This document shows, piece by piece, positions 45,964-47,334 of a stretch of 64,000 bases of DNA; position 1 is the first letter of the stretch; every line of letters begins with the position of its first letter. The position numbers were made by a program, and so were the translations under genes. Source of the stretch: Golubevia sp. BC0850 (Eukaryota > Basidiomycota > Exobasidiomycetes > Golubeviales > Golubeviaceae); NCBI GenBank assembly GCA_012976225.1, contig JAAVVG010000022.1:310001-374000 (forward strand), read 5' to 3'. A model generated the notes under the pieces. The model was not told the origin of the DNA. It made no database searches and saw nothing but the letters and a program-made list of their open reading frames with translations.

Positions 45964-47334
45964 ATGCGTTTCCAAATTCTACTCTCTTTCACCCTCGTTG
46001 CTCTCGCAGTAGCCAACTCCATTCCAAATGGAGCTTCCAACCAAGTCCACGTCGCAGCTCGTGACGTCGTCTCTGGAGCCAATGGCCACGAAGTTGCTCA
46101 TCGTGACTTGAAGGTGAGTGCAGAACTGCGACTGGTCAAGTATGGGCTCGAAAGCAAACTCTTACCGTACTTTCTACTCTCTGTTAGCAGCTCGCCCTTC
46201 GTCGCCGTAACTTTCCCAAGAGAAACCTGATCGCCCCTGACGGTCTCCTCCAAGAGGTCGGTGAGCTTTTAGCCACCTTGGAGAAAGCTCTAGGAGTTAC
46301 TGCCTTGGAGAACGCACTTGACAAGGTGCTGCCTTTGGAGGCAGTCGAGGAATCTCTAGGTTTAACCAAGCTAGAAGAGAGCTTGAACCTTCTCAAGGGA
46401 TGCTCCAAGGACGGAGTCCTTCAATACGTCGGAAAGCTCGTCAAGTACCTCGAGGACACCCTAGGAGTCGTGAGTTAACATTTGCGCTTGATCAGAGAGC
46501 TGTTTAGGTTCACAGAGGGGCAGAAGAGAAAAAAGAGATTGAGATCGAGAACCGTTCCTCAAAGACGGGGAATCCGTCTGACCTCATTCTCTTTCCCGCC
46601 TTCACAGACTGCTCTTGAGAACGCTCTCGACAAGAAGCTTCTAGGAGGAAACTTGTCTAAGCTAGAAGATTCTCTTGGACTCACCAAGGTATTGGAAGGA
46701 TTGGATCTAGCCAAGAGACAACAAAACTCTCGCAGACATTTGACCGCCCCAGACGGTCTTCTACAAGGAGTCGGTAAGCTCTTGGCTGCTTTAGAAAAGG
46801 CTCTAGGAGTTACTGCCTTAGAAGATGCCCTTGACAAGGTTCTTCCTCTTGTGAGTACAGAAAGGTGCTGCCGCTGCCGCTGGCGACGCACGCTGTTGGC
46901 GAGCTCTTTCTGACGCCTTCGTTTCTCCTTCTCCTCTCTGGTGCTCCATTGGTGACTTTTCTTCATACTTTCGTCTGCCCCAGGAAGCTGTCGAGGAGTC
47001 TCTAGGCTTGACCAAGCTCGAAGAAAGTTTGGACTTGCTCAAAGGGTGCTCCAAGGATGGAGTACTTCAATACGTTGGAAAGCTCGTCAAATATCTTGAA
47101 GACACCTTAGGAGTTGTGAGTAGGGACAAGTCTGCGAGAGCGAGGAAAGGGGAATGGGAAAAAAAGCTAGATGTCGAGGTTTTCTGATGGTGACGCAATA
47201 TCTGACCCCACTTTCTTCCTCAATCCTCACAGACTGCTTTGGAAGACAAGCTCAATCAAACCTTGGGAGGTGGTCTCTACAAGCTCTTCGACTCCTTGGG
47301 ACTCACCAAGGTCGAAGAAGGACTCGACCTTTAA
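45964..47334 (+). CDS. Secreted four-repeat protein with Kex2-type sites
   Basis: Five exons, all phase 0: 45964-46113, 46191-46469, 46608-46850, 46984-47115 and 47233-47334, giving 301 residues. Residues 1-17 are a signal peptide (MRFQILLSFTLVALAVA). After a spacer come two copies of a roughly 110-residue block, each made of two related units of 53-62 residues (A1 62-123, B1 124-177, A2 187-248, B2 249-301). Shared core motifs are LLQ-VG-L---LE--LGVTALE and SLGLTK-E--L. Dibasic sites FPKR (58-61), AKR and SRR (178-186) stand before each block, so Kex2 could release two helical products. There is one Cys per A unit (121, 246) and no other. I do not recognise the family. The organisation resembles fungal Kex2-processed repeat proteins; a surface, matrix or effector role is inference. 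Confidence 0.85.

Follow-up and report, generated by a model that had tools for sequence, protein, structure and literature searches.

The protein described here can be compared above all with two kinds of fungal Kex2 substrate. In Kex2-processed repeat proteins (KEPs), such as Rep1 of Ustilago maydis, a secreted precursor carries tandem repeats with KR or RR between them; one survey defines KEPs by at least three repeated motifs and describes a tendency of yeast-like Basidiomycota towards longer KEP products (PMC6339444), and a second by at least three repeats, each of at least 8 amino acids and none longer than 100 (PMC7329392). In K2PP proteins, such as SnTox3, an N-terminal pro-region ending in KR or aliphatic-x-x-R precedes the mature domain, and the Kex2 motifs are given as KR/RR and LxxR (PMC8528282). 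The gene studied here, which we call W (45964..47334, forward strand), has likenesses to both. Like the KEPs, it encodes a predicted secreted precursor with tandem repeats and KR/RR between them, in a genome that has a KEX2-like gene, but its repeats are only two, of 112-113 residues, which is below the minimum of three in both surveys, and the other genes of its family have a single one. The comparison with Kex2-processed repeat proteins drawn in the initial annotation thus does not extend to these definitions: W works like a KEP if it is cut, but lies outside the KEP definition. Its products are moreover predicted to be helical, whereas Rep1 gives short amyloid-like peptides. As for the K2PP layout, W has FPKR (residues 58-61) after its signal peptide, in keeping with the KR/RR or LxxR motif of PMC8528282, but two successive mature domains follow, and the likeness is one of layout.

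Our analysis suggests, with a probability of roughly 0.6, that W is a secreted pro-protein of an undescribed family, named and defined here from its relatives as the LGVT two-unit secreted family, and that it would be split by Kex2 into two products, AB1 and AB2, each made of one A-B pair of units; we infer both secretion and cleavage from the sequence. An ordinary member of this family would consist of a signal peptide, a short pro-region ending in Arg and a single AB domain of about 112 residues, acidic and helical. In W, a tandem duplication would have copied the block running from the Kex2 site of the pro-region to the end of the AB domain. In the Golgi, cleavage by Kex2 after FPKR would then free the precursor of its pro-region, and cleavage in the linker after LAKR, SRR or both would separate the two halves, each a two-unit protein of about 12 kDa and nearly identical to the other. 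W may thus show how a one-domain secreted pro-protein can turn into a two-product one, by copying of the domain with its cleavage site, and could represent an early step towards the Kex2-processed repeat proteins.

The window, i.e. the whole stretch of 64,000 nucleotides that was analysed, corresponds to positions 310001-374000 of contig C14 of the Golubevia genome (25.8 Mb, 64 contigs). In our splice model, W runs from ATG to TAA in a single continuous frame through five exons (45964-46113, 46191-46469, 46608-46850, 46984-47115 and 47233-47334), with four introns of 77, 138, 133 and 117 bases, all GT-AG and all phase 0, and encodes the 301-residue A-B-A-B precursor anticipated by the initial annotation. 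Exon 1 (45964..46113) holds a likely signal peptide (about residues 1-18, MRFQILLSFTLVALAVA) and pro-region sequence. The following intron (46114-46190) ends in TAGCAG, a tandem acceptor at which one Gln would be added or skipped at residue 51, making a 302-residue form with an extra Gln possible. The first predicted Kex2 site, FPKR, lies at 46212..46223. AB1 comprises unit A1 (residues 67-117, 46239..46391) and unit B1 (residues 124-177, 46410..46709, split by the intron at 46470-46607); AB2 comprises unit A2 (residues 192-242, 46752..47037, split by the intron at 46851-46983) and unit B2 (residues 249-301, 47056..47331, split by the intron at 47116-47232). A hidden Markov model built from 13 units, W's own A1 and six paralogue units among them, recognises all four (66.3, 68.5, 63.7 and 68.8 bits for A1, B1, A2 and B2, respectively) and finds two units in each of five other family genes. 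At the junction of AB1 and AB2 is the linker AKRQQNSRR (residues 178-186, 46710..46736) with two further predicted Kex2 sites, of which LAKR corresponds to the LxxR/KR motif given in PMC8528282. By sequence count, each half has one Cys, Cys121 (46401..46403) and Cys246 (47047..47049), as had been noted before. W is flanked by an ING-domain gene upstream and an MFS transporter downstream, and these neighbours offer no functional hint.

The two halves of W are identical at 98 of 113 positions (87%), and the two units within a half are also related (A1 against B1: alignment z = 20.4, a score reached by 0 of 2000 shuffles). Over 112 codons, AB1 and AB2 differ at 85 nucleotides but only at 14 amino acids, third-position identity is 48%, and dN is 0.11 for a dS of 0.85 (YN00) or about 2 (NG86), i.e. 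a dN/dS of 0.13 (YN00) or 0.06 (NG86). Introns 2 and 4 score 12 against each other, inside the range of 300 shuffles (maximum 16). The few protein changes, the low dN/dS and the shuffle-level score of the introns indicate an old duplication kept by selection on the protein: in the codon comparison the halves are old, their synonymous sites being close to saturated, and strong purifying selection acts on them; the repeat is best read as coding constraint, neither chance nor a recent duplicate.

A further doubling is visible inside the units, where the first part, LE..LGVT..E..L, matches the second, LE.ALGLT..E..L, with the register kept. For 12 of the 14 units, the score of this match is attained by no more than 8 shuffles in 1000, the exceptions being C61_B (88) and C8_A (30); these shuffles preserve composition only, and the likeness may therefore also stem from convergence of amphipathic helices. 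Each unit of about 53 residues thus looks like two half-units of the form helix-LG[VIL]T-helix, and one AB product like four of them. A low-confidence AlphaFold2 model of an Acaromyces relative agrees with this pattern, with four helices per unit. Helices were predicted both for exon 2 of W alone (mean pLDDT 53.5) and for the Acaromyces relative (34 aligned sequences, mean pLDDT 45.0), neither with a confident fold; the small folded domains initially proposed are thus putative. The PDB sequences contained no match at E ≤ 1 for W or for a profile of 33 relatives plus exon 2 (profile A3).

Genome searches with the first half of W, the Acaromyces relative and the C8 protein (12, 13 and 14 matches, respectively) match only contigs C14, C11 (twice), C61, C55 and C8. 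The genome thus holds six family genes: W, two on C11 that encode identical proteins, and one gene each on C61, C55 and C8. All but W are single-AB genes, whose products, with splice sites chosen by eye, have 180 residues (each of the C11 pair), 143 (C61), 143 (C55) and 163 (C8). The two C11 genes, inverted with respect to each other and separated by about 52 kb, each sit in a 1,536-base block, with 99.4% identity; the inverted blocks (loci L018 and L019, near 1915.5 kb and 1967.2 kb of C11 of the genome, G000) encode the same protein. In a tree of 20 rows (the W halves, four paralogues and 14 relatives, to the exclusion of fragments and of models that probably retain introns), AB2 of W joins C11 (93/89) and AB1 branches just outside (92/94). 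Both forks are below the starred support level, and so indicate that the AB duplication may match the split of W and C11 in age, and no more. Intron 2 of W (46470-46607) bears a weak likeness to the matching C11 intron (L019:2426-2558), with a score of 17 that lies above all 300 shuffles (maximum 15). The intron in A2 (46851-46983) follows VLPL, at the aligned position of the unit-A introns of C55, C61 and C8, and has no counterpart in A1 or C11, which points to intron loss or gain varying between the copies.

Searched alone against 5.8 billion proteins, W gave no match at E ≤ 10 among the 7999 candidates scored, supposedly because leucine-rich words crowded out its relatives. A profile built from the four single-AB paralogues found at least nine proteins at E ≤ 1 in the 5.8 billion-protein database (about 8000 candidates scored), and a profile of ten sequences at least 45 at E ≤ 0.01 (about 8000 candidates scored), one of them the window's own exon; the relatives from both searches were pooled as P0001-P0049. 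The pool includes exon 3 of W read through (P0046) and, judged by eye, near matches to exons of C8, C55 and C11 (P0001, P0007 and P0044). Its sources are the Exobasidiomycetes Acaromyces ingoldii, Tilletiopsis washingtonensis and Sympodiomycopsis kandeliae, the Ascomycota Sarocladium (Hypocreales) and Apiospora (Amphisphaeriales), and Stachybotrys, Beauveria, Akanthomyces, Metarhizium, Hapsidospora and Cosmosporella, which we take to be Hypocreales. The AB pair follows the pattern VG..[VIL]..[LIV]E...G[VIL]T...E..LD....GG.[LIV]...E..LG[VIL]T..E..L.L (two units of about 53 residues), as does W. Under the unit model, two full units are the most that any of P0001-P0049 contains, the three unit matches in P0023 and P0025 probably arising because an intron splits one unit; both profile searches admit lengths of 0.55-1.75 times the query, a range outside which proteins of the size of W fall, and further four-unit precursors could therefore have escaped them. 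The public models of P0006, P0008, P0023 and P0025, for example in Tilletiopsis and Metarhizium, seem by eye to carry unspliced introns as insertions. Between the Acaromyces protein, from a basidiomycete, and its counterpart in the ascomycete Sarocladium the identity is 64%, and in the 20-row tree the Acaromyces protein has a short branch next to a group of mostly ascomycete sequences; this suggests either transfer between phyla or hidden paralogy.

Apart from short Ribosomal_L12_N matches, discussed below, Pfam scans of W, four paralogues and the relatives pointed to no described family, and the six NCBIfam families that appeared did so in one of 34 members each (best E 0.0027); the open literature searched contained no description of the family. 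The LGVT two-unit family, as delimited here by sequence, is thus an undescribed one that spans two fungal phyla and occurs as a single unit in a few bacteria. The initial annotation had recognised no family, which holds for Pfam and NCBIfam once the short L12_N matches, in our judgement spurious, are set aside, but W is not an orphan, given its six genes in this genome and the relatives P0001-P0049. Profile searches, a check of the kind it proposed, retrieved relatives in Exobasidiomycetes, Hypocreales, Apiospora and the bacterium Actinomycetospora. The apparent orphan now has named relatives, and with them come conserved residues and a widespread processing site, which makes the function testable in other organisms.

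The secretion of W is predicted from the start MRF[SQN]..A-x-A, which is kept in the relatives and supports the signal peptide of the initial annotation; W, with MRFQ and the FPKR boundary, has the MRF... start and the Arg before the domain that are found in the family. For the boundary count over P0001-P0049, 14 sequences had an unusable N-terminal boundary, 15 were of the Beauveria/Akanthomyces type and 20 others were usable (P0006 and P0008 are seemingly one gene, and P0007 is the C55 gene or a near copy). Arg stands directly before the domain in 18 of these 20, compared with 3 of 159 other pro-region residues, a count biased towards the site by our setting of the domain boundary by eye. 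At P4, 15 of the 18 Arg boundaries carry L, I, V, A or P, and at P2 six carry K or R, so that most fit a Kex2-like aliphatic-x-x-R context. The Tilletiopsis gene is without a boundary Arg, and the Beauveria/Akanthomyces type has an Arg in the 12 residues preceding the domain in 0 of 15 cases. Within the Golubevia genome, an Arg lies at most six residues from the unit start in C55 (LEAR), C61 (LEVR), C8 (LHRR) and both copies of W, KR or RR occurring at the boundary in W and C8 only; in C11, the nearest paralogue of W, the 13 residues ahead of the domain (start 68-70) are free of Arg, and there is just an RK farther upstream, at 54-55. A KEX2-like gene on contig C5 encodes a Peptidase_S8 domain (137 bits) and a P_proprotein domain (58.9 bits) within one open segment. 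Together with this gene, the commonness of the Arg boundary makes removal of the pro-region look old in the family. The basic sites flanking the halves, FPKR (58-61), AKR (178-180) and SRR (184-186, followed by His187), are thus where the initial annotation had placed them, and they agree with its proposed N-termini (residues 62 and 187) and C-terminal end (near 177).

Whether the linker is cut as well bears on the strongest alternative, an unlikely one in our estimation, in which processing of W stops at removal of the N-terminal pro-region and all four units function as one protein, with the basic linker as a flexible hinge inherited in the duplicated block. Conservation across the family backs N-terminal removal only and is silent on the linker, because the single-AB members have none, and the C11 domain exists without a clear site. 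The linker, however, has two dibasic sites, including LAKR with the P4 Leu and P2 Lys that are preferred according to PMC8528282, and the genome has the KEX2-like gene. By eye, the linker LAKRQQNSRRHLTAPDG also resembles the tail of the leader, LALRRRNFPKRNLIAPDG, as though the copied block had included its cleavage site. The AB domains of W contain no KR, RR or RK, and a single KK in B1; P0027, which has an RR between its A and B units, indicates that AB domains sometimes carry such sites. With the Arg boundary present in 18 of 20 relatives but in 0 of 15 of the other type and missing from C11, and with a KEX2-like gene at hand, cleavage of the W precursor into two near-identical products is likely, though unproven.

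A somewhat less probable proposal, and one we doubt, is that W is an effector-like secreted protein of the K2PP type, acting in double dose on a host or neighbouring organism. A pro-domain followed by a KR or LxxR site is indeed the K2PP layout of PMC8528282. No Pfam effector family was matched by W, the paralogues or the relatives scanned. The genera of the relatives include plant-associated and insect-associated ones, as such a role would lead one to expect, but also saprobic ones.

The 11 mature forms computed have masses of 11.1-12.5 kDa and pI values of 4.05-4.64. The hydrophobic moment of the long first helix is high (reached by 10 of 2000 shuffles for A1 and 2 of 2000 for B1); that of the six short helices is reached by 61 to 779 of 2000. 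It is possible, if on the whole doubtful, that the products, as amphipathic helical proteins, act outside the cell on a lipid ligand or at a surface, be it a hydrophobic one or that of the cell, in which case the duplication in W would serve dose. The dimerisation through a single Cys suggested by the initial annotation finds little backing in the family: AB1, AB2 and C11 have one Cys per mature form and Sympodiomycopsis four, but seven of the 11 forms (C61, C55, C8, Acaromyces, Sarocladium, Stachybotrys and Beauveria) have none, including three of the five distinct proteins of the Golubevia genome.

That W is a KEP or RiPP precursor from which short bioactive peptides are cut is very improbable: its repeats are secreted and flanked by KR/RR, but there are just two long ones, when both KEP surveys demand at least three and one allows none above 100 amino acids, the AB domains are free of KR, RR and RK apart from the one KK in B1, and the neighbours are the ING-type gene and the MFS transporter. 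A search of the genome for UstYa gave no match, and the control genomes were likewise without one, so that this negative carries little weight. Least credible of all is a relationship to the dimerisation domain of ribosomal protein L7/L12 (PF16320). W does reach 28.1 bits for a cut-off of 25, and the single-AB protein P0002, already labelled PF16320 in the database, passes at 26 bits, but of the 48 profile positions the best stretches cover only 19-32 in W (14 residues) and 14-33 in P0002 (20 residues). The four paralogues score at most 20.8 bits or have no match, none of ten and then six other relatives passes, four of 34 aligned members match at E ≤ 0.1, and the proteins look secreted. What W and P0002 share with this domain is a helix-turn of 14 to 20 residues resembling LVxxLExxLGVT, the rest of the 48-position profile being unmatched by what is a secreted repeat protein. 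We thus rejected the Ribosomal_L12_N label on W and P0002 as spurious, given these short matches and the paralogues below the cut-off; as an automatic label it is misleading. We also dropped the idea that the D....GG.[IL]...E loop is EF-hand-like: compared with the EF-hand pattern as generally known, the loop is near-perfect in P0027 only (positions 3 and 5 judged by eye), P0027 has no Pfam match at E ≤ 1, and A1 has no GG.

Outside the fungi, a secreted-looking, stand-alone single unit occurs in four of 18 Actinomycetospora genomes (L023:2806-3168, L024:2857-3168 and further loci). Like the fungal proteins, it has a near full-length match to the fungal-unit model (best E 1.8e-8 for a database size of 5.8 billion) and a signal-peptide-like start; unlike them, it has one unit and a bacterial leader. 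We tentatively propose, while leaning slightly against it, that the doubled-helix module of about 53 residues is transferable, with one unit in Actinomycetospora, two in two fungal phyla and four in W as a Kex2-split polyprotein, and that lateral transfer took place between fungi and this actinobacterial genus as well as between fungal phyla. Because the single-unit form is patchily distributed within a bacterial genus, movement of the module between kingdoms becomes a testable question.

The family also resembles HsbA/cell wall mannoprotein (PF12296), in that both are small secreted fungal proteins and HsbA too is present in the Golubevia genome, but PF12296 is not listed for W at E ≤ 10, for four paralogues and 16 relatives at E ≤ 1 or for 34 members at E ≤ 0.1, and the HsbA sites of this genome lie elsewhere. 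Some Beauveria and Akanthomyces relatives carry the source labels 'Cell wall protein' or 'Cell wall galactomannoprotein', without Pfam support. HsbA gives seven matches in the genome, three of them above the cut-off, and the control matched, below the cut-off, in two of 14 genomes. Two of the HsbA-family sites, 22 kb apart on contig C33 (G000 C33 622021-622251 and 643856-644086), have the same score and are possibly a recent duplicate.
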